A DNA stretch of 64,000 bases from Methylobacter tundripaludum SV96. Lineage in GTDB: Bacteria; Pseudomonadota; Gammaproteobacteria; Methylococcales; Methylomonadaceae. The position numbers were made by a program, and so were the translations under genes. Shown piece by piece: positions 1-14,319 of the stretch (its first letter is position 1; each line of letters begins with the position of its first letter). A model generated the notes under the pieces. The model was not told the DNA's origin. It saw only the letters and a list, made by a program, of their open reading frames with translations, and made no database searches. The stretch spans positions 2,173,937 through 2,237,936 of the forward strand of contig NZ_JH109152.1 of NCBI RefSeq assembly GCF_000190755.2, given 5' to 3'.

Positions 1-3000
1 GTACCCGCAGAACGTGGCTTGGCAGGATTTGTGGGCCATATCACCGACTATATTGATGAGGTCACTACTGACGTAAACGGTGATCCGCTGTGTGGAGGTC
101 AATGCGTTAGCCAATGTTACGTCGTCGTAAACGGGGTAGACGTAGGCACTGTTGCTCCTGTTGATGCCGTAGGCCATTGCCCGACTACCGACGCGTCCGG
201 AAATACCGTCGAAGGCAAGCTCAAGATACCTAACTTGGGTCCTAACCGCTACGCACTGTCCATTACGCCGCCCAATGGTTCCAATTGGCAGCAGACGACA
301 ACGCTGGAAGGCAACCTGGATTGGGATAGCTGGGTCATGGAGGGCGCAACAGGACTGGATACGGAGTTCGTTGTCGCGGGCGAACCCTTCCCGGCCGCCA
401 TTTTCGGTTATGTACAATCGAAAAATACATTATCGGGTGGTGGCGGATCGATTTCAGGTTTCATTGACGCCGTAAAGGTCTACGTTCCAACCACGGGCGG
501 TGTCGGAGGACTCCCTGGAACAATTTGGGGAGGTTTGGCTGGTGCAAAGATTGATGGCCCAGTCAAAAACCCTTGGATCGCCCTGACCGACTTGACGAAC
601 GGAGACACCGCCGTATGGATAGGCCAAGGCGACGCCAACGGTCATTTTTCGATTCCGGGTGTCCCTGAGGGGAACTATACCTTGACCTGGTGGGATTCCA
701 ACTTGAACTATATCCTCGACCTTGTTCAGCTCTCCGTGGGTCCTAATGAAAGCGTCGATATGGGCGTGCTGCCGCTGACCGGCTGGTGGAGCAAGTTCGA
801 AGGGTACGTCTATAACGACACCAATAAGAACGGCAAGAAAGACCCCGGTGAAGCAGGGCTGGCTAATTATCCCGTTAGCATGAAAAAGCGCGAAAATTCA
901 TTAATGGACCGTGGCGCTGTTACTGTGACTACCGACGCGAACGGTCATTATGTCATGGAAAACGCCTATCCGATGACGCAGTGGCTGGTTATGGAGGCTT
1001 ATGATGACTTGCACTACAGCACCGGCATCACCTATCAGGCCGACAACCAGCCGAACGAAACGACCGTGCCGGGCGAAGGCGTGGATGTCAGCGTGTTGCC
1101 CATCATCGGCCTGTCGGGCCATCTTGACTGGGGCAAACACAGCTATGAAGCCGGCACCAACGGCGGCATAGTCGGCACGGTCAGCTACGACACCACCCGC
1201 AATGAAACTGATCCGCGCTTTGCAGCCGTGGAGGCTTGGCAGCCGGGCGTTTCCAATTTGCCTGTTAAACTTTATGCGCCTGTCCCTTGTGGCACCAATA
1301 CCGGGGCACCGTGCGACGCAAGCGGTCGCTATGAGTTGGAGGTAAACGGTGCTTTCAAAAAAGCAACTGTGAGTCCGCTTCAAACCTACATCACCGAAAC
1401 CTGGCAGCGGCCCAGCGGCTGCGTAGCTCGCGATGTCGACGGCAACCCCCTTGTCGGCCAGCAGGTTTTGCCAGCCAACCCGGCCGCAGAATGCCTGGAA
1501 GGCCCGCTGATGGGCATACAGTTCGGCCCGATGCCCGACAATCCGGCGGCCCCGACCAATTTCGGCGCGGCAGTGGACGGCAACTACGGTTTTGGCGGAC
1601 TTAGCCCCGGTGATTACCTGGTCGAAGTTGAGGTCCCGAACGACGCACTCGGCCGGCCGCTGTATAAGTTTACCAGGGAAGAAGACATCAATATCGCCAA
1701 TGGCGATACCTTTGTGCCGCAAATCCCGCCACCGGAATGCGCCGGTCCGCTGCATGAGGTCGACGTGGCTGGTTACGGCACCGACAACTACGGTCCGCTT
1801 GTCGGAGACGGCAATACCGTGCCGGTTGGCGTCACCGTGCCCGCATCAACGCCGACGGTAAATTCAACCTTCGTTAGTATCGGAGGAAGTCCATATGAGG
1901 GTCAGCCTAAGCCCCTGTGCAACATGAAACTGGTGCATGTCAGCAACGGCAAATCGGTTGCCCCAAGTTTCACTGTCTTCACCGACGTACCTATCCCAGC
2001 GCGTTTCTGGGGCCTCATTGTCGACGACCTCAACTTCTCATCCGATCCGAAGGCGCTGAATTATGGGGAAAAGGCTGGCGTGCCGTTTGCACCGGTCGGT
2101 ATTTATGACTGGTCCAACAAACTGGTTCATACGGCCGAGTCGGATTTCAACGGCTTGTTCGACGTGCTGTTACCTTCCACCAACCGCATCAGTTGTCCAA
2201 CGCCTTCCGGTGTTTGTGCCAATCTCTACCGTTTTGTCGGTAACGATCCAGGCACTCCAGGTAATCTGAATCTGAACTACCATCCGGAGTTCCGCACCAT
2301 CGCGGCAGAGTTCGAGGCAATCCCAGGCTTAATCGTTCCGGCTGACCTAGCGCCAACGCAGGTCGGTGTCACGGTGCAATTACCGGGCGGCCAGGTCGCT
2401 CAGCCCTTGAGTTGCCCTCTTAATATATACACGGGTCCAAATGCCACGCCACCTGAAAAGTTGGTGCCTGAGTTGATGGCTGTGTCGACGCCTGTTGTTA
2501 CTCGGCCTTCTGGGACAGCAACGGTTGCTGTCACGATCCAGGGCGACAATTTCGGCACCAAGACCGGCCCGGCCAATGTCTATCTTGATAGTGTGCCTGT
2601 TCCGACGGCAGCATGGACGCCTACGTCAATTACCATGCAGATAACCTCCAGCGCCGCTTTTGTTGGGCCGCACCAGCTCACTATCGTTTCGGCCAATGGC
2701 CAGAAGACGGTGAACGGTCTGACTTTCCATGTGCTTGGTGGCAACTACATGCCGAACGTCATCACCGTGGGGCCTGGCATCAACACCCTGACAAATCCCC
2801 ATGCAATCCAAAACGCATTGGATGCGGCTGCCGTTAATACACAAACGCTGGTAGTGGTTTATCCCGGCGTGGCGGATGCCAATCCGCGGGCTAATCCACG
2901 CGGCGCGTATTACGAAAACTTGATTATCCATTCGCCGGTGAAACTGCAAGGCATAGGACCTGGAGGGATTCGGAGCGACGGTAGCACGGTCGCAGGCACT

Positions 3001-5235
3001 ATTATTGATGGTAGTGCTTTTGCCGGTGATACCCAGCAGGCGACCGACTGGCGCACTACGGTTGCCAATCTGGCCTGGGTAGGGACACAGACAGTATACG
3101 AAGGCGCGGTGATTACCGTGTACCCGCAAACGAGGACGCAGTTCGGTTCGACGTTCAGAGCCAGTATCGATGGTCTGGACCTGCGCGGTGGCGACCAGCA
3201 GGGCTTTCCCACCAACATTAACCAGATCGGAGGTACACCGACAGGCTTAGCGCCTAATGTCGTGACCCAAGGCGGGGCTATTTTCGCCAACGGCTACGCC
3301 CATTATCTGCAGATCACCAATAACGTGGTCCAGAATAATGGCGGCGCCTACGGTACAGTGCGTGTCGGTACGCCGAATCTACAGGGCAATGACGCCAACG
3401 AAGGCACCGATCAGCACAACGACAACGTGCGCATTGCCAATAACCGCATTATTGCCAATGGCGGTACCAATTTAGCGGGAGCTGTCGGACTGTTCGCCGG
3501 AACCAGCAATTATGAGGTGGCCGGCAATGACATTTGCGGCAACTTCTCGGCGGAGTACGGTGGCGGTATCAGCGCCTATGGCCTCAATTACAACCGCGCA
3601 GCGTCTTTTAACAGTACCACCAACTTCGGCGGCAAGATCCATCACAACCGCATTTACCTCAATCGTTCTTACGACGAAGGCGCCGGCATCATGATCGCCG
3701 GGGCACTGCCGTCCAACCCAGACAATCTCTCAACCGGGGCAGGGCCGGTTGCCATATACAGCAATCTCATCCAGGGCAACCTGGCCAATGACGACGGCGG
3801 CGGCATACGCTTTTTACAGGCAGCGGCGGACTGCGCACCGGCGGCAAATACGTACACTCCGTGCAACAGCGATGTTTATAACAACATGATCGTGAACAAT
3901 GTATCGACTCACGAAGGCGGCGGTATCAGTCTTAACGATGCGCCGGCTGTTCGTGTTTACAACAACACGATCATGAAGAACATCACTACCGCCACCGCAG
4001 TCACCAGCACAGGTTCTCCGGCGCCGGCGGGACTTTCCACTTCATTAAATAGCGCTCAGTTGCAGGCTGCGCTCGGAAACCCGGTAACCAACTGGAGCAA
4101 TCCTTTGTTGTTCAACAACATTTTCTGGGACAACCGCGCCGGAGCGCGCTCCGGCAGTACTGTCACTGGTATTGGCGCAGCGGGTGATGCCACGGCGCTA
4201 AACCTTTGGGACCTAGGCGCATCGGATACCAGCGGCCTATTGGCGCCGACCAACTCCATCGTGCAGCAAAACGCAGGACAGTATGCGTATATTACATCGG
4301 CGACTAACGCTAACTCGGATCCACAAGTTGTCACACCCTACGACACAATATTGGATTTTGCGGCATGGCGGACCAACCCGGCGTTCATCGGCGCGATTCT
4401 GGTATCCGCGGATTTGCCGCCTACGCTCTTGGGAGACTACCACCTGCTGGCGGGGTCTACGGCTATCAATTTGGGCGCAGGTAGCAAAAATGGTGTAAAT
4501 GCGCCTGGCCTCGACATCGACGACGGTGCCCGTACGGGATTGCCAGACTCCGGTGCCGATGAACAAGGTATTGTCGGTTCCATACCGGGCGGCGGTGGCA
4601 CACCGGGTGGCGGTGGTGGTGGCACTCCAACACTGCCGGCGCTGGCAGTATTGGATAACTTCAACCGTGCTAATGCCAATACGTTGGGAGGGAATTGGAG
4701 CCAGATTGTCCTTTTCGGTAACGCGGCAATACGTGTCAACAGTAGCCAAGCGGTTGATTTGCTGTTGCCTGGTGCCGCCTACTGGAACGGTATCGGCAAC
4801 AACTTCGGCGCCAACCAGGCGGCGGCCTTCACCTTCGCCAACACGACGCTGAACAACGCAGCGTTGGTGCTAAAGGCAAGCGGTGGCTCCGCATCGATAC
4901 CGGCAAACTTCATCCGTGTGCAATATCAAACGGCGAGTGGTGGCAGAATCGTTGTGCAGACGACAACTAACTCTGGCGGCTCCTACAACACCCGTGCCAC
5001 ATTCACCGCCGGCGCCAATTTCGCCAACGGCAACACGCTGAGCGCAGTCGCCCGGGCGAATGGCACCGTGGAGGTCTATAAGACCGCAGGCACCACCACA
5101 ACACTGGTCGGTAGCGTCATTATTCCGATGACTGGGAGTGGTGCGTGGACGCAAGGCGCAAGCGGTGGCCGAATCGGAATGCAGCTCCCAAGTAGCGCGA
5201 GGGTCGACAATTTCAGCGGCGGTATGGTGCCGTAA
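1..5235 (+). CDS. Giant secreted beta-helix / SdrD-like repeat protein (5' end missing)
   Basis: The frame is open from base 1, so the true start and any signal peptide lie outside the window; the TTG at 19 is only the first possible start inside it. From that codon 1738 residues are seen. The first ~800 hold repeated Cna-B/SdrD-type carboxypeptidase-like folds, for example a YNDTNKNGKKDPGEAG calcium-loop motif near residue 265. An IPT/TIG-like domain follows at ~820-905, then a long right-handed parallel beta-helix at ~915-1490 rich in NN and GG turns and ending in a DSGADE motif. A Gly/Pro linker (~1523-1536) leads to a C-terminal jelly-roll-like domain that resembles the end of the peptidase at 11668. 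There is no catalytic signature I recognise. It probably acts outside the cell as a scaffold or adhesin. It lies 71 bp upstream of the split copper oxidase genes and is presumably co-transcribed with them. Confidence 0.8.
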   Translation, partial: VPAERGLAGFVGHITDYIDEVTTDVNGDPLCGGQCVSQCYVVVNGVDVGTVAPVDAVGHCPTTDASGNTVEGKLKIPNLGPNRYALSITPPNGSNWQQTTTLEGNLDWDSWVMEGATGLDTEFVVAGEPFPAAIFGYVQSKNTLSGGGGSISGFIDAVKVYVPTTGGVGGLPGTIWGGLAGAKIDGPVKNPWIALTDLTNGDTAVWIGQGDANGHFSIPGVPEGNYTLTWWDSNLNYILDLVQLSVGPNESVDMGVLPLTGWWSKFEGYVYNDTNKNGKKDPGEAGLANYPVSMKKRENSLMDRGAVTVTTDANGHYVMENAYPMTQWLVMEAYDDLHYSTGITYQADNQPNETTVPGEGVDVSVLPIIGLSGHLDWGKHSYEAGTNGGIVGTVSYDTTRNETDPRFAAVEAWQPGVSNLPVKLYAPVPCGTNTGAPCDASGRYELEVNGAFKKATVSPLQTYITETWQRPSGCVARDVDGNPLVGQQVLPANPAAECLEGPLMGIQFGPMPDNPAAPTNFGAAVDGNYGFGGLSPGDYLVEVEVPNDALGRPLYKFTREEDINIANGDTFVPQIPPPECAGPLHEVDVAGYGTDNYGPLVGDGNTVPVGVTVPASTPTVNSTFVSIGGSPYEGQPKPLCNMKLVHVSNGKSVAPSFTVFTDVPIPARFWGLIVDDLNFSSDPKALNYGEKAGVPFAPVGIYDWSNKLVHTAESDFNGLFDVLLPSTNRISCPTPSGVCANLYRFVGNDPGTPGNLNLNYHPEFRTIAAEFEAIPGLIVPADLAPTQVGVTVQLPGGQVAQPLSCPLNIYTGPNATPPEKLVPELMAVSTPVVTRPSGTATVAVTIQGDNFGTKTGPANVYLDSVPVPTAAWTPTSITMQITSSAAFVGPHQLTIVSANGQKTVNGLTFHVLGGNYMPNVITVGPGINTLTNPHAIQNALDAAAVNTQTLVVVYPGVADANPRANPRGAYYENLIIHSPVKLQGIGPGGIRSDGSTVAGTIIDGSAFAGDTQQATDWRTTVANLAWVGTQTVYEGAVITVYPQTRTQFGSTFRASIDGLDLRGGDQQGFPTNINQIGGTPTGLAPNVVTQGGAIFANGYAHYLQITNNVVQNNGGAYGTVRVGTPNLQGNDANEGTDQHNDNVRIANNRIIANGGTNLAGAVGLFAGTSNYEVAGNDICGNFSAEYGGGISAYGLNYNRAASFNSTTNFGGKIHHNRIYLNRSYDEGAGIMIAGALPSNPDNLSTGAGPVAIYSNLIQGNLANDDGGGIRFLQAAADCAPAANTYTPCNSDVYNNMIVNNVSTHEGGGISLNDAPAVRVYNNTIMKNITTATAVTSTGSPAPAGLSTSLNSAQLQAALGNPVTNWSNPLLFNNIFWDNRAGARSGSTVTGIGAAGDATALNLWDLGASDTSGLLAPTNSIVQQNAGQYAYITSATNANSDPQVVTPYDTILDFAAWRTNPAFIGAILVSADLPPTLLGDYHLLAGSTAINLGAGSKNGVNAPGLDIDDGARTGLPDSGADEQGIVGSIPGGGGTPGGGGGGTPTLPALAVLDNFNRANANTLGGNWSQIVLFGNAAIRVNSSQAVDLLLPGAAYWNGIGNNFGANQAAAFTFANTTLNNAALVLKASGGSASIPANFIRVQYQTASGGRIVVQTTTNSGGSYNTRATFTAGANFANGNTLSAVARANGTVEVYKTAGTTTTLVGSVIIPMTGSGAWTQGASGGRIGMQLPSSARVDNFSGGMVP

Positions 5236-5306: not shown

Positions 5307-6716
5307 ATGAGCAATAACAAACTTTCCAACCACGGCCGCCGGCGTTTTCTAAAACTTGCCGGCAGCGGCCTTGCCATCACTGGCGGCGTCGGACTGCTGC
5401 CCGGCCAACTGCGTCGCCAACTCTTACCTATCAGCGACGCGGCGGCGACTCCGAGCGACCCGGCTGATTTATTCTTCGTCGGCACCGACGGCTGGATCTC
5501 TTTACCGGCATCCCCTGGGATACCTACGTTCCACCCCGACACCTATGCTCCGACGAACTTTACGACGTACATTTTCGGCTTCCGCAATATGACCGGCATA
5601 CCGCCAATGGACCCAGCGGATCCGACAAAAATGAACCCGCTGGTAATCGGACAAAAAAATAAAGCTCAGCATAGCGCACCGCTGTTCTGGGTTGATGAAT
5701 TCACCGGCGCCAATACTTTCCGGCTGGACCTGCTGAACGTCGGCTTGGCGCAACGGCCTGACCTGACCGATTCGCACTCGGTACACTGGCATGGTTTCCG
5801 TAACGTTATCCCGTTTTTTGACGGGGAACCGACCGGCTCCTTTGCCGTCCCGGTAGGCCGCGTGTTTCGCTATATCTTTAAACCGCGCGATCCCGGCACT
5901 TATATGTTCCACTGTCACGTAGAGGACACCGAGCATGTGCATATGGGCATGACCGGCCTGGTCTTTGTACGGCCACGGCAGAATGGCAATACTGCGCTAT
6001 ACCCGAGCGGCAAGTTTGCCTATAACGATGGCGATGGCTCCACCGGCTTCGACCGTGAGTTCGCGATGTTCCTGTCCGAGGTGTGGGCCGAATCCCATTG
6101 GGCCGACGCCCATATCCAGCTGCCGGAATGGAGCGATTACAAGGTGGATTTTACTTTGCTCAACGGACGGGTCTATCCCGATACCCTGGAACCCAATTCG
6201 CCATACAATGCCGCGACTTCCACGCATGCCTACGACACGCAACGTCAAGCGGACGGTGATCTGGTCGTTCCGACCGGACGACCAGACCTGCAATACCAGC
6301 CGCTGTCGGCTCTGGCGACCTGCAACGCAGGCGAACGGGTGTTGCTGCGTTTTGCCAATCTTGGCTTCAAGGAAGCGTCAATGACGCTTGCCGGCATCAA
6401 GATGAAAGTGGTGGGCAAGGACGCGACCCCAATGCGCGGCGTTATTGCGGGCGGGACGGCGCGTACTGGAGTGGACACCAGCTACGAGACCAACACGCTG
6501 TCTTTCGGCGCCGGGGAGAGCTTTGACGCGATCTTTACTGCACCACCGCATTCAGGCGGCTCAGGACCTGACGTCTACATCCTGTACAACCGCGCCTATG
6601 ATCGTTCGGACAATCAGAGCGGCGGCGCCGGCGGCCAGCGTACCGAAATCCGGGTATATCCTCCCGGAACCATTAGTCCGCAGACCATACCCAACGAAAA
6701 CCCTACGGTCGCCTGA
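5307..6716 (+). CDS. Multicopper oxidase subunit carrying type 1 Cu and half of the trinuclear site
   Basis: The start at 5307 follows AGGAGA at 5294-5299; the longer frame from 5238 has no such site. The protein is 469 aa with a Tat-type leader (RRRFLKLAGSG, residues 11-21), consistent with export of a folded copper protein. The first cupredoxin domain has H157-x2-H160-x-H162-G followed by H202-C203-H204-x5-H210-x4-M215. These match the L3 and L4 copper motifs of multicopper oxidases: a type 1 copper (H157, C203, H210, M215) plus four ligands of the trinuclear cluster. The second domain (~250-469) lacks copper ligands. The L1 and L2 motifs needed to complete the trinuclear site are absent here and are found in the next gene. 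The protein resembles the N-terminal part of MofA/OmpB-type six-domain oxidases. The substrate is unknown; Mn(II), Fe(II) or Cu(I) are family precedents only. Confidence 0.85.
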   Translation: MSNNKLSNHGRRRFLKLAGSGLAITGGVGLLPGQLRRQLLPISDAAATPSDPADLFFVGTDGWISLPASPGIPTFHPDTYAPTNFTTYIFGFRNMTGIPPMDPADPTKMNPLVIGQKNKAQHSAPLFWVDEFTGANTFRLDLLNVGLAQRPDLTDSHSVHWHGFRNVIPFFDGEPTGSFAVPVGRVFRYIFKPRDPGTYMFHCHVEDTEHVHMGMTGLVFVRPRQNGNTALYPSGKFAYNDGDGSTGFDREFAMFLSEVWAESHWADAHIQLPEWSDYKVDFTLLNGRVYPDTLEPNSPYNAATSTHAYDTQRQADGDLVVPTGRPDLQYQPLSALATCNAGERVLLRFANLGFKEASMTLAGIKMKVVGKDATPMRGVIAGGTARTGVDTSYETNTLSFGAGESFDAIFTAPPHSGGSGPDVYILYNRAYDRSDNQSGGAGGQRTEIRVYPPGTISPQTIPNENPTVA

Positions 6717-6739
6717 CGACTCGCCAAACGGAGTTCACT

Positions 6740-8083
6740 ATGAATACGTCAACTTTTAAACAGCTGTCACGGCAACTGGCAACACCGCTGGCGGTCGCTA
6801 TCTCAAGCTTGCTTGTGGGCCTGCCCACGATGGTCATGGCCGACCCCTTGGGTGTCGCCTGCACCAACGGAACCAGCCCTAATCCGAGCTTCAATCTCAC
6901 GACCCAGACCGGCGACATCCAATTGCCCGACGGCAATACTATGTATATGTGGGGTTACTCGGTGCAGGGACAGAGCTTCCAGCATCCAGGCCCGGTGTTG
7001 TGCGTCAACCAAGGCGACACCGTGACCATCACCCTCACCAATAACTTGCCGGAAAAAGTTTCGATCATGTTTCCGGGGCAAACCGACATTCTGGCCAATG
7101 GAGTTCCGGCCCAGCCGGAATTCACCGCTAGCCGCGCAACCTCGTTGACCACAACAGCTCCCGCACAAGCCAACAATATTCCTGGGGTGGTTCAATACAG
7201 TTTCGTCGCAAACCTGCCCGGTACCTATATATATGAATCGGGCACCAACCCGCAGAAGCAGGTGCGCATGGGGCTGTTTGGTACGCTGATCGTGCGTCCG
7301 ACCGGAACAGGCGGCGGCTCCGACCACCTGTACAACCGTGCGGATAGCCGGTTCACTACATCGGACAATTCCGCGGGCGCAGGCAACTGGGATGAAGAGT
7401 TCCTTGCCCTGCTTTCGGAGATCGACCCCTATCAGCATTGGGCGGTCGAAGTCAATCCGGCGGCCAACTTTAACTTTAACAACTACAAGCCGCGCTATTG
7501 GCTCATTAACGGACGCGGCTTTCCGGACAGCATCGCCGATAACGCCGCGGCATTTCTACCGAACCAACCTTATGGAGCCTTGGCACGCGTTCATCCGTAC
7601 GGTGCTCCGGCCCACCCTTATCCCGGCGCAATCCGGTATTTGAATGTAGGCTCGGAAGATTACCCGTTCCACCCGCATGGTAACAACGGGTCGGTAGTCG
7701 GCCGAGACGGCCGTTCACTTGAGACGGCGACAGGAGACGACGTGTCTTTCGAGAAATTTATTGTACCGGTCGGGCCGGGACAGACTTGGGACGTGCTGTT
7801 TAGCTGGCACGACGCCGAGCACTATTCGCCTGACAATCCGGTGGATATTAATATTCCTCAGATCGCCAACCAGTTTTTCGGGCAGTTCTACAACTTCAGC
7901 CCCTACCTTGGCGTACAAGGACAACAACCGCCCAATTGGTCGACGCTTAATACCTGCGGTGAGTACTACATCATTTCGCATAATCACGCTCTGTATCAGA
8001 TCACTTCATGGGGTGTAAACATGACGGGGCCGATTACTTATATGCGTGTCGATCCACCTCTACCCAATTCGTGCGCTCAGTAA
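6740..8083 (+). CDS. Multicopper oxidase subunit carrying the complementary trinuclear-site motifs
   Basis: This 447-aa protein has a Sec signal peptide (hydrophobic stretch ~14-33, likely cut after VMA). It starts 23 bp after the previous gene, behind a GGAG at 6729-6732. Two cupredoxin domains are visible. The first keeps the fold signatures (GPVLCVNQGDTV, GTYIYESG) but has lost copper ligands. The second has H311-P-H313-G and, near the C terminus, H414-N-H416-x3-Q420 followed by GVNMTG. These correspond to the L1 (HxHG) and L2 (HxHx3Q) motifs, which in classical oxidases supply the remaining four trinuclear-cluster histidines. There is no type 1 site. The protein therefore looks unable to act alone and would complete the active site with the 5307-6716 product. 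The order resembles the last domain of a six-domain enzyme whose active site lies between domains 1 and 6. Confidence 0.85.
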   Translation: MNTSTFKQLSRQLATPLAVAISSLLVGLPTMVMADPLGVACTNGTSPNPSFNLTTQTGDIQLPDGNTMYMWGYSVQGQSFQHPGPVLCVNQGDTVTITLTNNLPEKVSIMFPGQTDILANGVPAQPEFTASRATSLTTTAPAQANNIPGVVQYSFVANLPGTYIYESGTNPQKQVRMGLFGTLIVRPTGTGGGSDHLYNRADSRFTTSDNSAGAGNWDEEFLALLSEIDPYQHWAVEVNPAANFNFNNYKPRYWLINGRGFPDSIADNAAAFLPNQPYGALARVHPYGAPAHPYPGAIRYLNVGSEDYPFHPHGNNGSVVGRDGRSLETATGDDVSFEKFIVPVGPGQTWDVLFSWHDAEHYSPDNPVDINIPQIANQFFGQFYNFSPYLGVQGQQPPNWSTLNTCGEYYIISHNHALYQITSWGVNMTGPITYMRVDPPLPNSCAQ

Positions 8084-8118
8084 CGGGGCTTTTGCGGAAA
8101 ACTCAGGAGATAACGGAC

Positions 8119-10887
8119 ATGTTAATATCGACTAATATATTCAAAAAATTTAAACGCAAAGCCCTACCTCTGGCAATAGCGAGCGTACTAGGTTCCGGGC
8201 TTTATCAGCTGCCGGCCAATGCCGCGTTGCCGACGAGCGCGGCCTGCACCGGCACTGGAACTACTGTCAGCTGTGAATTGTGGGCTAAGCCGGGTACTGC
8301 AACGCTGACAACGGGCGTCACCGTACCCGTCTGGGGCTATGCGGCTGCGGCTGCCGACCCGGCCGGCTTGCCCGGTCCTGTTTTGATCGTTAATCAGGGC
8401 GATACGGTCACTGTGAACTTGCACAACGCACTATCCGAACCCACGGCGCTATTGTTCCAGGGACAGAGCTTGCCGCCGGATACGGTCGGGACAGCGGCGG
8501 GGGGAACCAAGAGCTACACTTTCAAAGCTTCAGAACCCGGCACTTACTTGTACGAGGCCGGTCTGCCGGAAAACACCCAGCACCAGCCCGCGATGGGCTT
8601 ATACGGTGCGCTCGTAGTGCGTCCTGCGACTCCGAATCAAGCCTATGGCGCGACCACGGCTTTTGACGACGAAGCTCTGGTGCTGGTCAGCGAGATCGAC
8701 ACAGCCTTGAACAACAGCGCGAACCCAGCCGGGTTCGATATGCGCAAATTCGCGCCCAAGTATTTCCTGATCAACGGCAAGGCCCATCCAAGTCCCGATC
8801 TGATAACGCTTCCGGATCCGGTAGCTACACCTTATCCGGCGTCCGGTTTTAACCTGCTGCTGCGCTACGTCAATGCCGGGATCAAACATCATTCGATGGC
8901 GCTGTTGGGCCTGCGGCAAAAATTTATCGCTAATGACGGCAGCTTGATTCTGCATCCGCGCGACGGTGTATCCGAGACCATCGCTCCCGGCCAGACAGTT
9001 GATGCCATTACAACGATTTCGTCCGCGGCAGTACCCGATAGCAGGTTCGCTGTATACGATGCCGGCATGAACCTGAATAACAGTAGTGCCGCCGGCATGG
9101 GCGGAATGCTGACTTTTGTGGCTTTGGGCGGAGACGGCGTTTTGCCAACGCCGGGAACGCCTCCAGCGCCTCCAGGGCCTCCGACTGATACGGCCGGTCC
9201 GGTGACCAGCGGCATAACTATGACGCCCAATCCCAGCAATGCGGCCACCATAGCCTTAAGCGCGACAGGCAATGATACGAGTACCGGTAACAGTAATGTC
9301 GACGCAGCCGAATACTTTATTGATGCGGCTTCGCCCCCTTCTGACGCAACCCGTGGCGTATTTATGCCTGTAGCATCGCCCGGCGCGGTAGCGATTGCCG
9401 CCGCCTCGATCACGGCACCGGTACAGGGTGCGCATAATATTTTGGTGCGCAGCCGCGATGCCGCCAATAACTGGGGCGCGTTCGCTCCTGCTGTCAGCCT
9501 TATACAGGACACAGCCGGGCCGTCGACGACAGTCACGCCCATCGCCTCCAATGGCAAAAATGGGGTTAATTCGAGCACGGCTGCGGCCCGTATCGTTGCA
9601 GCGGCAACGGATAACCTGACCAATGTCAGCGCCGTCGAGGGCTATCTCGACAACAATACGACATCGGTTTTCCCATTCGTCCCGAGCGATGGCAGTTTCA
9701 ATAGTCTATCTGAAAATGCCTACGCTGATATTCCGCTGGGAACTGTAACGACGCTGAACAGTGGCAATCATGTTGTGCATGTGAGAGCCAGAGATGCTGC
9801 CGGCAATTGGGGCGTGTTTACCAGCAACAACAACTTGCTTATCGATAAGGTCGCGCCTGCGGTAACTGGCGTTGTGACGGCTACTCCGAATCCGGCCTTC
9901 ACCAGCTTCGTACTTTCTGCCAATGCAACCGATGCGGCCCCAACTTTGGGCATTGCCGGGGGCGAGTGGTTCGAAGGCACGGATCCCGGTATAGGCCTTG
10001 GCCACCCTATGACGGCAACAGGTGGGACGACGGGGCCATGGACGGTCACCTCCAACGAGAATGCGCGTTCATTGAACTGGGCAGAGGGAAATCATACCGT
10101 GAATGTTCGCGCCAGGGATGCTGCTCAAAACTGGAGTACTGGTACAGTCAGCGGAACCGTAACGGTGCAATCGCCGATCTACTTTTCGACGTTCGGCAAT
10201 ACCAATCCGCCGGGTGTGGGAGGCACGGCCGACGATGCGGATATCTACTTCTGGAATGGTATTGCGTTCAGCCGGACGGTCGATGTCACCGCTATCGCCA
10301 ACCCGCTGCCTGCCGCCGCCAACGTTGACGGATTTCAGCGTGTAAGCAATACGCAGTTCTATCTCTCCTTCAGCTCTGCTACCGTGACTGTGCCAGGTGT
10401 TGGAACGGTTCAGGATGAAGACATTGTCTATTACGACAACGGCACCTGGTCGGTGTTCTTCGATGGTACCGCCCAAGGGTTGACTGCCGACAATCTCGAT
10501 ATTGATGCGTTCACCATCAATGGAAGCAACATCTACTTCTCGACGGTCGGCAACACCAATCTGCCGGGCGTAGGAGGCACGGCCGATGATGCGGATATCT
10601 ACCTCTGGAATGGTACGGCGTTCAGCCGGACGGTCGATGTCACCGCTATCGCCAACCCGCTGCCTGCCGGGGCCACCGCTGCCAACGTTGACGGTCTGAA
10701 ATTCGTGGACGCGAAGCACTTCTATCTCTCCTTCAACACGGCTACCGTGGCTGTGCCAGGTATTGGAACGGTTCAGGACGAAGACGTCGTGTACTACAAC
10801 AACGGTGCTTGGTCGGTATATTTCGATGGTACAGGTAAAGGACTGACTGCCGGCAATCATGATATCGATGCCTTCGACATCCCGTAG
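8119..10887 (+). CDS. Copper-free cupredoxin-pair protein with Ig-like domains and C-terminal tandem repeat
   Basis: The start at 8119 is chosen because AGGAGA lies at 8105-8110; the frame upstream to 8008 overlaps the previous gene. The protein is 922 aa with a Sec signal (residues ~14-35, ending PANAA). Two degenerate cupredoxin domains (~36-335) keep GPVLIVNQGDTVTV and GTYLYEAG but have no HxH copper motifs; KHHSM in the second is the only trace. A Pro-rich linker near residue 345 leads to three or so Ig-like (bacterial Ig/FN3-type) domains with AANNWG, AAGNWG and AQNWS ends, also found in the 11668 peptidase. The last ~236 residues are two copies of a ~118-aa module. I infer that it supplies the structural middle pair of domains in a six-domain oxidase split over three genes and anchors the complex to a surface partner. 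Confidence 0.8.
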   Translation: MLISTNIFKKFKRKALPLAIASVLGSGLYQLPANAALPTSAACTGTGTTVSCELWAKPGTATLTTGVTVPVWGYAAAAADPAGLPGPVLIVNQGDTVTVNLHNALSEPTALLFQGQSLPPDTVGTAAGGTKSYTFKASEPGTYLYEAGLPENTQHQPAMGLYGALVVRPATPNQAYGATTAFDDEALVLVSEIDTALNNSANPAGFDMRKFAPKYFLINGKAHPSPDLITLPDPVATPYPASGFNLLLRYVNAGIKHHSMALLGLRQKFIANDGSLILHPRDGVSETIAPGQTVDAITTISSAAVPDSRFAVYDAGMNLNNSSAAGMGGMLTFVALGGDGVLPTPGTPPAPPGPPTDTAGPVTSGITMTPNPSNAATIALSATGNDTSTGNSNVDAAEYFIDAASPPSDATRGVFMPVASPGAVAIAAASITAPVQGAHNILVRSRDAANNWGAFAPAVSLIQDTAGPSTTVTPIASNGKNGVNSSTAAARIVAAATDNLTNVSAVEGYLDNNTTSVFPFVPSDGSFNSLSENAYADIPLGTVTTLNSGNHVVHVRARDAAGNWGVFTSNNNLLIDKVAPAVTGVVTATPNPAFTSFVLSANATDAAPTLGIAGGEWFEGTDPGIGLGHPMTATGGTTGPWTVTSNENARSLNWAEGNHTVNVRARDAAQNWSTGTVSGTVTVQSPIYFSTFGNTNPPGVGGTADDADIYFWNGIAFSRTVDVTAIANPLPAAANVDGFQRVSNTQFYLSFSSATVTVPGVGTVQDEDIVYYDNGTWSVFFDGTAQGLTADNLDIDAFTINGSNIYFSTVGNTNLPGVGGTADDADIYLWNGTAFSRTVDVTAIANPLPAGATAANVDGLKFVDAKHFYLSFNTATVAVPGIGTVQDEDVVYYNNGAWSVYFDGTGKGLTAGNHDIDAFDIP
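10177..10884 (+). repeat. Two tandem 354-bp coding repeats
   Basis: Two direct copies begin at about 10177 and 10531. They encode a 118-aa module that starts with IYFST and includes GVGGTADDADIY, FSRTVDVTAIANPLP and QDEDxVYY. Much of the DNA is identical between copies (for example GGAGGCACGGCCGA and CGGACGGTCGATGTCACCG), so the duplication is recent or kept homogeneous. The second copy carries two or three extra codons (GATA) before the NVDG motif. Function of the module is unknown. Confidence 0.85.
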
Positions 10888-11042: not shown

Positions 11043-11645
11043 ATGAAAAAGTTATCCCTTTTTTCCGGCTTCGGCCGTAGATCCATCATGTCCATATCTA
11101 CAGCGAGCGCTATGGCTTGCCCTAGCATGGCCGAGACCGAAACGAGTCTTTCCAGGCACAAGCATGCGGTGCCAAGGTTCCGCTACGTGGGGCGTATCCT
11201 CACCGCCTTGAGCGCTACCGCCTTATTGACTGGGGGGGGATGGTATTATTATCAGCGCAGCATTGCTGCACCGCCGGTAGCGGTTCAGGCATCAACCGCG
11301 TACATATCCAACGATCAGTTGGAGGCTCAATACGGCGTTCGCGTCACGCTCATCGGTGTTTCGGCAGTGGGCGGGATCGTCGATTTTCGCTACAAGCTTG
11401 TCGATCCGGCAAAGGCTGCGGCTTTGCTCCATGATCCTGAGAATGCGCCTGTGCTGACTGCGGTGGACAGCGGCTTGACACTATCACCGACCAAAATGGG
11501 CAGCAGGCATCATAGCCAGATGGGCATGAAGAAAGGCACCGCTCCGTTTACCTTCTATCCCAACGTCCGCAATGCGGTAAAAGCCGGTACTCCTGTTTCC
11601 GTAGCCTTCGGCAAGATCAAGGTCGAGCCGATAGTCGCGCAATAA
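11043..11645 (+). CDS. Membrane-anchored periplasmic protein of unknown function, His/Met motif
   Basis: The 200-aa product starts behind CAGGAGAACAATAA. A cytoplasmic N-terminal ~46 residues precede one membrane segment (~48-67, ILTALSATALLTGGGW). The remainder, about 125 residues, should face the periplasm. It contains SRHHSQMGMKKGTAPFTFYPN, where two histidines and two methionines cluster in a way that could bind copper. I do not recognise a named family. Its place between oxidase and peptidase genes in one transcription unit suggests a role in copper delivery or assembly, but that is inference only. Confidence 0.7.
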   Translation: MKKLSLFSGFGRRSIMSISTASAMACPSMAETETSLSRHKHAVPRFRYVGRILTALSATALLTGGGWYYYQRSIAAPPVAVQASTAYISNDQLEAQYGVRVTLIGVSAVGGIVDFRYKLVDPAKAAALLHDPENAPVLTAVDSGLTLSPTKMGSRHHSQMGMKKGTAPFTFYPNVRNAVKAGTPVSVAFGKIKVEPIVAQ

Positions 11646-11667: not shown

Positions 11668-14319
11668 ATGAAGACTGTCTTTCTTATCGCGATAAACCTT
11701 GCTCTGGTCTGTTATTTGCCCGCTGTTCCTGCGGCGATCTCGAATCAGGGAAAAATTTCTTCCGAGGTGCGGTCTGCGATAGCTGCGTCATCCTCGACAC
11801 AAGAAATCTCCGTGATCGTGTATTTGAAGGACCGGGCCAATCTGGCGTCTTTCCGCAATTTGCACCGCACAGAACGGCTTCGAGGCGTAGTCAATGCGTT
11901 ACGGAATAAGGCCGATCTCTCTCAACGCAGCCTGAAATCTTTTCTGGAATTGCGCCGGGGCCATGGACGAGTCGGCACGTATAAGTCGTTCTGGGTATTC
12001 AACGGCTTCTCCGTCACTGCCGTTCCGGGCGTGATCCAGGAACTGGCTGACCGGGCCGATGTGGAGCGGATTGAAGCGGATGAAGTCAACATTGTGCCTG
12101 CAACAATGTCTCCCGAGCCCAACCTTTCTTTGATAGGAGCGCCTGACGTTTGGGATTTAGGTTTCTACGGACAAGGGGTGGTGGTAGCCAATCTGGACAG
12201 CGGCGTGGACAATACGCATCCCGACCTCGCCAATCGATGGCGGGGCGGCTCAAACAGCTGGTACGATCCCTATGCGCAGCATGCAACGCCTTATGATCCG
12301 ACCGGCCACGGTACCTGGACAATGGGGCTCATGGTCGGCGGAGATGCCGGAGCCACTTCCGTTGGGGTGGCGCCGGGGGCTCAGTGGATCGCCGCGAAAA
12401 TATTCAAAGATAACGGCTCCGCCACGATAACTGGAATTCATCAGGCTTTCCAGTGGCTTCTGGATCCCGATGGAAATCCCGCCACGGCTGATGCACCCCA
12501 AGTAGTGAACAACTCTTGGGCGTATGGTGCTCCAGGTTGCAATCTGGCCTTTCAACCAGATCTTCAGGCGCTGGTATCCGCCGGTATAGTCCCGGTGTTC
12601 GCGGCTGGGAATTATGGTCCGGGCAGCAGCACCAGCGTTAGTCCGGCCAATTATCCGGAAGCTTTTGCGGTCGGCGCTACAAACAATCTTGATCAACTTT
12701 ATGCCTACAGCGGAAAAGGGCCTTCGGCTTGCGGCGAGGCCTCGACAGTCTATCCGGAACTTGTGGCGCCGGGCGTGAATATTTCAACGACCGATCTTTT
12801 CGGTTTTTATACCAGCCAATCCGGAACTTCGGTAGCAGCTCCGCATATCGCCGGGGGCTTGGCGCTGCTGCTCAGTGCCTATCCGCAGTTGACGGTGGCA
12901 CAGCAACGGGATGCTTTGCTTTTGTCCGCGGTAGACCTTGGAACTCCGGGGCCTGACAACAGTTTCGGTTACGGCCGTATCAATCTGCCGGCTGCCTATG
13001 ACTGGGTGGTGCTCAACGCCGGCAATCCGTCTACGGCAGTGGATGCCACCGGACCTGACACGAACAGTATCAGCGTAAGCCCTAATCCCAGTAACGGGAC
13101 TCTGGGTTTTGACATCAATGCGCCCGCCGTTCGGGTGGCTGCTACTGTGGCCGATCCGGCCATCAATGGCTTACAGTCCAATATTAGAACTGCCGAGGTA
13201 TTCGTCGACTCGGCTGGAAGCAATGGCTCCGGCTTGGCATTTCTCGCCGACGACGGGGTTTATGATAGTCCGGCTGAAGCCGTCTACGCAGACATTCCGC
13301 TGACGATCATCGCCCAGCTTGGCGATGGCTCCCATATCCTTTACGTGCACGGCCAGGATTTTGCCGGAAACTGGGGGGCAATGAGCAGCACAGTGCTGAT
13401 CATCGATAAGACTTCTCCTACTGTCAGCAATGTCACTACGACTCTGACGAACACGACGGTCAACCTGACCGCTACCGCTGCCGATCCATCTCCAGGCAGC
13501 GTTACTAAGGCCGAATGGTTCGAAGGGAATGATCCCGGTAAAGGGCTGGGGTATTCGATGTCGGTGTCGGGCGGCACTGTCGCCGCAACTATTAACGTCG
13601 GCACTTGGACATCCGGTAGCCATACGCTGTTCGTCAGGGCTAGAGATAGCGCTGGAAATTGGAGTGCCGCGGTATCGGCGAACATTACCATAGCTGCGCC
13701 GAATGCCATTTTCATTGACGGCTTCGAGTCAGGGGGCTTCTCGGCCTGGAACGGAGGCGTTACCGGCACTCGTATTAGCGTTAATACCGCCGCCGCAGCG
13801 ATGACCACCGGCGGAATTTATGGCATGCAGGCCACTCTTGGAGGCGGTACTGCTCCGGGCTATGTTGCCGATGGGACGCCAACTCTTGAAAAGAGCTATC
13901 ACGCACGGTTCTATTTCAACCCGCACAGTACCAATCCGGGGAGTGGGCAGGTGACGATTTTCTCCGGCCTGAATGCAGCCGGCACGACTATCTTTCAGGT
14001 GCAATTCAAGCGCAACGGCAGCAGCTACCAAGTGCGCGGTGCTGTGTTGAGATCAGGCGGCACGACCTACACGAACTGGGTTACTCTTGCCAACAACACC
14101 GCACACCCCGTCGAGATAGCTTGGCAGTCCGGTACGTCAGCATCCTTTCAGCTTTACACGGACGGAGTGCTCAGGCAGACGCTGAGCGCCCTGAACACCA
14201 GCGCCTATTCGTTGGATACGGTACGGCTGGGCACCTCTACCGGTCTTGTTAATACCGCCAGCGGAACCTTGTATTTCGACGCTTTTGCTTCAACGAGGGC
14301 TACTGTTATCGGGCCGTAA
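11668..14319 (+). CDS. Secreted subtilisin-like serine peptidase (S8) with Ig-like and jelly-roll C-terminus
   Basis: The 883-aa product has a Sec signal (residues ~1-23), an I9-type propeptide (~45-145) and an S8 catalytic domain. The triad is D177 in NLDSGVD, H214 in GHGTW and S388 in SGTSVAAPH, with oxyanion N315 in AAGNYG. Two Ig-like domains follow (~465-690, ending AGNWGAM and AGNWSAA), closely like those in the 8119 gene. A C-terminal ~185-residue domain opens with FIDGFESGGFSAW and resembles the end of the protein at 1-5235. Shared accessory domains across three genes suggest common surface attachment or secretion. It may process the partner proteins. It starts 22 bp after the preceding gene and is the last gene before the terminator. 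Confidence 0.88.
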   Translation: MKTVFLIAINLALVCYLPAVPAAISNQGKISSEVRSAIAASSSTQEISVIVYLKDRANLASFRNLHRTERLRGVVNALRNKADLSQRSLKSFLELRRGHGRVGTYKSFWVFNGFSVTAVPGVIQELADRADVERIEADEVNIVPATMSPEPNLSLIGAPDVWDLGFYGQGVVVANLDSGVDNTHPDLANRWRGGSNSWYDPYAQHATPYDPTGHGTWTMGLMVGGDAGATSVGVAPGAQWIAAKIFKDNGSATITGIHQAFQWLLDPDGNPATADAPQVVNNSWAYGAPGCNLAFQPDLQALVSAGIVPVFAAGNYGPGSSTSVSPANYPEAFAVGATNNLDQLYAYSGKGPSACGEASTVYPELVAPGVNISTTDLFGFYTSQSGTSVAAPHIAGGLALLLSAYPQLTVAQQRDALLLSAVDLGTPGPDNSFGYGRINLPAAYDWVVLNAGNPSTAVDATGPDTNSISVSPNPSNGTLGFDINAPAVRVAATVADPAINGLQSNIRTAEVFVDSAGSNGSGLAFLADDGVYDSPAEAVYADIPLTIIAQLGDGSHILYVHGQDFAGNWGAMSSTVLIIDKTSPTVSNVTTTLTNTTVNLTATAADPSPGSVTKAEWFEGNDPGKGLGYSMSVSGGTVAATINVGTWTSGSHTLFVRARDSAGNWSAAVSANITIAAPNAIFIDGFESGGFSAWNGGVTGTRISVNTAAAAMTTGGIYGMQATLGGGTAPGYVADGTPTLEKSYHARFYFNPHSTNPGSGQVTIFSGLNAAGTTIFQVQFKRNGSSYQVRGAVLRSGGTTYTNWVTLANNTAHPVEIAWQSGTSASFQLYTDGVLRQTLSALNTSAYSLDTVRLGTSTGLVNTASGTLYFDAFASTRATVIGP

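Follow-up and report, generated by a model that had tools for sequence, protein, structure and literature searches.

Complementary halves of a trinuclear copper site in linked cupredoxin paralogues suggest a heterotrimeric variant of type C multicopper oxidases

The stretch of DNA analysed here, 64,000 nucleotides of Methylobacter tundripaludum SV96 (hereafter the window), carries three consecutive genes for cupredoxin proteins, which we call P1, P2 and P3 (Table 1). The gaps between them measure 23 bases (P1-P2) and 35 bases (P2-P3), and by eye each start has its own purine-rich ribosome-binding sequence (AGGAGA, GGAG and AGGAGA, respectively), so we read the three genes as one operon. Also by eye, the N-terminus of P1 is of the twin-arginine type (GRRRFLK), and those of P2 and P3 are Sec-like. 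Pfam Cu-oxidase models matched all three products, and profile alignment showed P1 to be homologous to P2 over 281 columns and P2 to P3 over 273 columns, which cover most of both domains. P1, P2 and P3 are paralogues with two cupredoxin domains each. A preliminary description of this locus had given these three genes the same coordinates, an export signal and two cupredoxin domains apiece, and the export-type starts and Pfam matches bear it out. It had missed that the cupredoxin part of P3 amounts to only about 310 residues, the remainder being an extension with Ig-like Pfam matches (weak in the window, clear in the homologue at locus L082), and that conservation of the cluster extends beyond these three genes.

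Table 1. Genes and copper motifs of the cluster, in window coordinates.
Feature	Position	Strand	Description
Giant SdrD_B/TIG-domain protein	19..5235	+	Domains by Pfam; homologue upstream in 62/68 loci with room
P1	5307..6716	+	469 aa; type 1 copper set and one half of the trinuclear ligands in domain 1; domain 2 without ligands
HSVHWHG	5775..5795	+	P1 residues 157-163; aligned to HTIHWHG of 3g5w domain 1
HCHVEDTEHVHMGM	5910..5951	+	P1 residues 202-215
P2	6740..8083	+	447 aa; domain 1 empty; domain 2 with the other half of the trinuclear ligands
HPHG	7670..7681	+	P2 residues 311-314; aligned to HAIHTHG of 3g5w domain 2
HNH	7979..7987	+	P2 residues 414-416; Asn at the Cys position; aligned to HDH of 3g5w (low score)
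P3	8119..10887	+	922 aa; copper-free paralogue; two cupredoxin domains at about 8227-9153, then a C-terminal extension with Ig-like matches
Small protein	11043..11645	+	One membrane-like segment (by eye); conserved downstream in 42/56 loci with room
Subtilase with Ig-like domain	11668..14319	+	Conserved downstream in 36/56 loci with room

The copper motifs of P1 and P2 are complementary. From established knowledge of multicopper oxidases we take His157 of P1 to be a type 1 ligand and His160 and His162 to be trinuclear ligands; in the second P1 motif, His202 and His204 would likewise be trinuclear ligands and Cys203, His210 and Met215 type 1 ligands. His311, His313, His414 and His416 of P2 are presumably trinuclear ligands as well. 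A search of the first 360 residues of P3, which contain its cupredoxin part, found no copper motif. This is the distribution that the preliminary description had read from the locus, with the third and fourth copper motifs in P1, the first and second in P2 and none in P3. No chain holds the full ligand set: the domain 2 set is missing from P1 and P3, and the domain 1 set from P2 and P3.

This division is conserved. All eight trinuclear histidines and the four type 1 ligands were invariant in 17/17 aligned P1 and 17/17 aligned P2 sequences, the window included (the two-gene loci L069 and L070 were left out of alignments A1-A3, and L057 and L067, in which P3 is cut or absent from the contig, were left out of A3). 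In a larger set drawn from Chloroflexota, Actinomycetota and Proteobacteria (96 P1, 94 P2 and 87 P3 sequences), the P1 ligand columns were filled in 94-96 of 96 and the P2 columns in 93-94 of 94. The domain 1 ligand columns hold mostly other residues in P2 and P3, and the Cys203 column never holds Cys. Among the six commonest residues listed for each column, 4 P2 and 3 P3 had a stray His at the His202 column and one P2 had one at the His210 column, while 9 P2 and 12 P3 had Met at the Met215 column. At the HPHG columns His was not one of the six commonest residues in either P1 or P3, and the HNH columns were gaps in both in this alignment. A crude pattern count gave the same picture, with the domain 1 pattern in 94/96 P1, 0/94 P2 and 0/87 P3, and a domain 2-like pattern in 92/94 P2, 0/87 P3 and 3/96 P1; in these three P1 sequences the match begins at the domain 1 motif or elsewhere.

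A search of 61 genomes, 22 of them others of the genus, yielded one close copy in the genus (G006, 91% identity), and all remaining matches, P2 and P3 themselves aside, were weak (E 2.5e-11 or worse). Across the class, matches at E 1e-10 or better came from 11/369 genomes, one of them the window's own. We read 18 loci from the genus and class searches and two plasmid records; P1 adjoins P2 in the same order in 16 of them (L053-L068), L069 and L070 being of another kind. P3 comes next in 15 of these 16, and the exception, L067, is a 3.4 kb contig that ends before P3. A scan with the P1 alignment over one genome per species (84,980 species) returned at least 557 confirmed relatives, the best of which make up 79 distinct loci whose titles name mostly Chloroflexota and Actinomycetota and few Proteobacteria. 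The order P1-P2-P3 is intact in 71 of the 79. Seven have only P1-P2 or P1, on contigs that end 4-816 bases past the last match, and in two of the seven (L111 and L134) the start of P3 is recognisable at the contig end; L086, a MAG, has P1, then P2 spread over two frames, and P3. Genomes with a fused gene, for which the preliminary description had advised a search, did not turn up: none of the 280 matching ORFs in 97 loci (L053-L149) carries two of P1, P2 and P3 side by side. A 2371-aa frame in L058 that at first suggested a giant gene fused to P1 was rejected as such, the giant gene being a separate ORF in another frame and P1 having its own start and a signal-like N-terminus.

Within the genus the trio is patchy, with a close copy in 1/22 other genomes searched (G006:C151, L055). 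The nearest relatives of P1 among the matches listed are a Methylococcaceae MAG (80%) and then Chloroflexota MAGs (70%), and in alignment A1 the gamma- and betaproteobacterial loci other than L055 show P1 identities of 32-38%. The fact that P1 lies nearer to Chloroflexota MAGs than to these loci suggests horizontal transfer.

The preliminary description had also assigned the products to two export routes, Tat for P1 and Sec for P2 and P3. In the window's clade the contrast stands, a loose Tat motif being found in 74/79 P1 entries versus 9/79 P2 and 7/72 P3 entries. Outside that clade P1 had the motif in only 2/16 loci, one of them a near-identical copy in the window's genus and the other (L057) an unconvincing match, and we rejected Tat export as a general trait of P1.

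In five divergent loci (L053, L054, L063, L066 and L068) a homologue of the giant upstream protein lies inside the P3 ORF itself, after the cupredoxin part, the match in L063 consisting of three short pieces. No separate upstream copy was matched in these five loci, the contig of L068 beginning at P1. The presence of the giant homologue within the P3 ORF suggests that the giant protein is physically tied to the complex, and we infer that the trio encodes a surface-tethered extracytoplasmic oxidase. A CopC-CopD-like family, one member of which was confirmed by Pfam, recurs in 25 loci, and its presence there points to copper supply. The small downstream protein at 11043-11645 had no Pfam or NCBIfam match; in some loci its matching ORF is longer and looks, by eye, fused to a multi-pass membrane part.

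Profile searches against the PDB placed P1 closest to 3g5w, the Nitrosomonas blue copper oxidase, and then to 2zwn, while P2 matched the two about equally best. The Nitrosomonas enzyme is known as a homotrimer, in line with the account of two-domain oxidases in PMC13151041 and PMC3192119. P1 domain 1 aligned on domain 1 of 3g5w, including its HCHVNVNEHVTM segment, and P2 domain 2 aligned on domain 2 (Table 1), so that P1 and P2 between them hold, in two halves, the ligand set of one type C gene. As in type C enzymes, each chain has two cupredoxin domains, seen both in the profile alignments to 3g5w and 2zwn and in beta-rich two-domain units of the predicted structures. By sequence, the type 1 copper set lies in the N-terminal domain (P1 H157, C203, H210 and M215), and the trinuclear ligands lie in P1 domain 1 and P2 domain 2, which argues for a heteromer rather than a homotrimer. 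Two-domain multicopper oxidases, as presented in PMC13151041 and PMC3192119, are homomeric trimers that form the cluster between protomers, the type C forms having their type 1 copper in the N-terminal domain; the three- and six-domain oxidases treated there are monomers.

Divided ligand sets also occur in a two-gene form. At 3037-4948 of L150, from a genome of the window's genus (G021), a 303-aa gene containing HSLHFHG and HIH precedes a 329-aa gene containing HTIHLHG and HCHVHTVKHLEMGM. The two-gene cassette consists of a B' gene (HxHG/HxH) and then an A' gene (HxxHxHG/HCH...M), the reverse of the gene order in the trio, and both motif sets are present in L150, L070, L151-L155 and L161; in L070 the pair lies between genes that resemble housekeeping genes. 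A search with the 303-aa protein matched 20/274 class genomes at E 1e-12 or better, a figure that includes cross-matches to three-gene loci such as the window's. We fetched 14 loci (L151-L164, L155 being the same place as L070). An A'-type gene with full motifs was present in 13 of the 14, and B' with both motifs stood alongside A' in six (L151-L155 and L161); in the rest the pattern caught the B' motifs partly or not at all, and L163 has B' only. A further arrangement was seen at 1-4085 of L069. There a B'-type cupredoxin unit forms the end of a 1128-aa ORF that, by eye, contains many carboxypeptidase-regulatory-like repeats, and the A'-type gene behind it is truncated by the end of the contig.

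Locus L170 encodes a canonical one-gene type C oxidase, a single chain that fills all twelve ligand columns. In a tree of 80 sequences rooted on it, P2 and P3 group together (support 0.97) and B' joins both (0.98); P1 and A' are each monophyletic, and the branching of A' relative to P1 has a support of 0.45. The domain 1 site is kept in A' (14/14) and P1 (18/18) and the domain 2 site in P2 (18/18) and B' (10/11), and none of the 18 P3 sequences in the tree has a full site. Stray histidines occur, for example at the His157 column in 4/11 B', at His313 in 2/14 A' and at His414 in 3/18 P3. If the divided site had arisen by fission of one gene, this series of one-, two- and three-gene forms would be less well accounted for than by duplication with complementary loss, and we regard duplication and differentiation of a homotrimer as the more likely route.

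Covariation between the proteins was calculated from the 84 loci with all three proteins and from the 71 of the window's clade, which amount to about 45-47 effective sequences with the phylogenetic signal left in. The top couplings were 2.1-2.7 times expectation between P1 domain 1 and P2 domain 2, 1.9-2.2 times between P1 domain 2 and P2 domain 2, and 0.4-0.8 times between P1 domain 1 and P3 domain 2; the two other interfaces of the proposed ring were not enriched (0.4-0.85). One of the two strongest pairs over all 84 loci joins P1 residue 174, near HWHG, to P2 residue 415, between the histidines of HNH, and this pair is absent from the 15 best in the window's clade. An earlier, unstandardised run (66 effective sequences, top 50 couplings) had given 3.4 times expectation for P1 domain 1-P2 domain 2 and 3.1 times for P1 domain 2-P2 domain 2. 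With so few effective sequences and shared ancestry left in, we take the covariation as mild support and not as proof.

For structure prediction we used L082, where P1, P2 and P3 lie in one frame with stop codons between them; with the stops read as Gly, the three join into one linked chain of 1158 residues. Its alignment (A5, 58 rows) was A4 (69/99 listed rows) less the single P3 rows placed onto P2, and the in-frame pairs of L149, L072, L075, L076, L103, L105, L107 and L108 are not among the linked rows. AlphaFold2 predicted the linked chain with a pLDDT of 84.8 and a pTM of 0.86, the long stretches below pLDDT 50 being the linkers 393-438 and 829-869 and residues 755-788. P1-P2 alone reached a pTM of 0.74, in a job that also differed from the three-chain one in chain length and alignment. 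The higher confidence with P3 added fits a closed ring, and linking the chains could bias the prediction. In Foldseek searches 3g5w superposed on one unit of the linked model at 3.1 A. A Thermus laccase fitted the three-chain model better (TMt 0.70-0.74 versus 0.46-0.48 on P1-P2); the aligned ranges are not given, so this difference does not point to the P1-P2 interface in particular. Ceruloplasmin, factor V/VIII and MnxG were paired with the linked model in sequence order over about 1270-1450 columns (ranks 1-18), with a TMq of 0.20-0.22 and an rmsd of 32.7-36.5 A. The P1-P2 model against six-domain proteins (TMq 0.25-0.30, rmsd 13-17 A) was equally uninformative on ring order. The pairings of the linked model indicate that its gene order is not the ring order of ceruloplasmin, which is no proof of the order proposed below. 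If the ring runs P1-P3-P2, then a failed superposition on ceruloplasmin in gene order (TMq 0.20-0.21) is expected, but an open arrangement would look alike, and we did not count this result.

Given the complementarity, conservation and linkage of the half-sites across phyla and their alignment to the two domains of one enzyme, a hetero-oligomer whose two copper-binding chains each hold an incomplete site, as the preliminary description had proposed, appears well supported by sequence. The reading that we consider best, and quite probable, is a P1-P2-P3 heterotrimer with a single active site in place of three, the product of triplication of a type C homotrimer and of complementary loss. The ancestral homotrimer would have had a complete ligand set in each chain and three trinuclear sites, each at the junction of one chain's domain 1 with the domain 2 of its neighbour. 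P1 would have retained the domain 1 site alone and P2 the domain 2 site alone, and P3 would have lost both. The three chains would form a ring of six cupredoxin domains in which P1 domain 1 meets P2 domain 2 and which P3 would close; the P1-P2 interface would hold the sole trinuclear cluster, which would receive its electrons from the type 1 copper of P1 and reduce O2 to water. The P3 extension and the giant partner may tether the enzyme to the cell surface. As to the substrate, our guess is a metal ion (Cu(I), Fe(II) or Mn(II)) in the first place, or else a small phenol.

The place of P3 in this complex can be questioned. The enzyme might consist of P1 and P2 only, with P3 a separate surface protein that travels along: P3 has no ligands, its ORFs differ greatly in length, and in the two-gene locus L070, both of whose flanks were read, no third cupredoxin gene was identified by eye among the listed ORFs. 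However, P3 is a full two-domain paralogue and sister to P2, model confidence rises when it is added, and the three-gene loci in which it was not seen in its usual place are cut by contig ends or, in the case of L086, have P3 as well. We therefore hold an enzyme of P1 and P2 alone to be unlikely.

Less probable by a good margin is that P1 is a mere electron-transfer or nitrite-reductase-like type 1 copper protein and P2 a decaying paralogue. The profiles of P1, P2 and P3 do also match copper nitrite reductases. Yet the four trinuclear histidines each of P1 and P2 are kept in at least 93 of the 94-96 sequences, across phyla, a constancy that decay would leave unexplained, and to our knowledge nitrite reductases lack the HCH motif.

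That a single-chain six-domain oxidase of the ceruloplasmin or MnxG type was broken into three genes, as the preliminary description had it, we consider barely credible: six cupredoxin domains in all, one trinuclear site and the long Foldseek pairings speak for it, but the poor superposition over those pairings implies a different domain order or arrangement, the three genes have separate starts and export-type N-termini, no ORF in the 97 loci holds two of the proteins, and the type 1 site lies in the first domain of P1, as in type C, and not in an even domain as in the six-domain enzymes described in PMC3600357, where the trinuclear site is at D1/D6 or D2/D3. Numbered in gene order, the half-sites of the trio would be D1 and D4, which would not be neighbours in a colinear ring.

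Beyond the heterotrimer itself, we lean towards a wider reading, with more reserve. An O2-reducing cluster would be assembled from two proteins, with a copper-free third closing the ring and tied to a giant surface protein, and the one-, two- and three-gene forms would be a living series of redundant-site loss before gene fusion, a stage long postulated in the evolution of ceruloplasmin-like six-domain enzymes. If this is true, then loss of sites and specialisation of subunits can precede gene fusion, and some genes annotated as multicopper oxidases but apparently incomplete would be half-enzymes whose partner is the neighbouring gene. P1 or P2 expressed alone would give a dead protein, and each half-site could be removed on its own, which would make the trio a direct experimental system. 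The occurrence of the trio in distant bacteria suggests that a very old enzyme can be built in a new way.

Our searches of the open-licence literature brought up no multicopper oxidase whose trinuclear ligands are divided between genes, and the known systems each share part of the design. The type C enzymes (3g5w, 2zwn) have, like the trio, two cupredoxin domains per chain, with HTIHWHG and HCH...H...M in domain 1 and HxHG and HDH in domain 2. The known members, however, have all ligands encoded in a single gene and form homomeric trimers, whereas in the trio the ligands are spread over two paralogues and a third has none; since no single chain of the trio was found to hold the full ligand set, we file the trio as a variant of the type C two-domain oxidases and not as a member. 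Ceruloplasmin, MnxG and their relatives resemble it in having six cupredoxin domains and a single trinuclear site, but these six-domain oxidases, as far as PMC3600357 describes them, are single chains with type 1 coppers in even domains, while the trio has three chains from separate genes and its type 1 site in an odd domain. The Mnx complex of Bacillus (MnxE3F3G), described in PMC5622069, resembles the proposed complex in being a hetero-oligomeric multicopper oxidase encoded by a single operon. According to that account only MnxG, a six-domain protein, is a multicopper oxidase, MnxE and MnxF being copper-binding partners of about 12 kDa; there the oxidase is kept within one chain, whereas in the trio all three subunits are two-domain cupredoxin paralogues and the site would be divided between the products of two genes.
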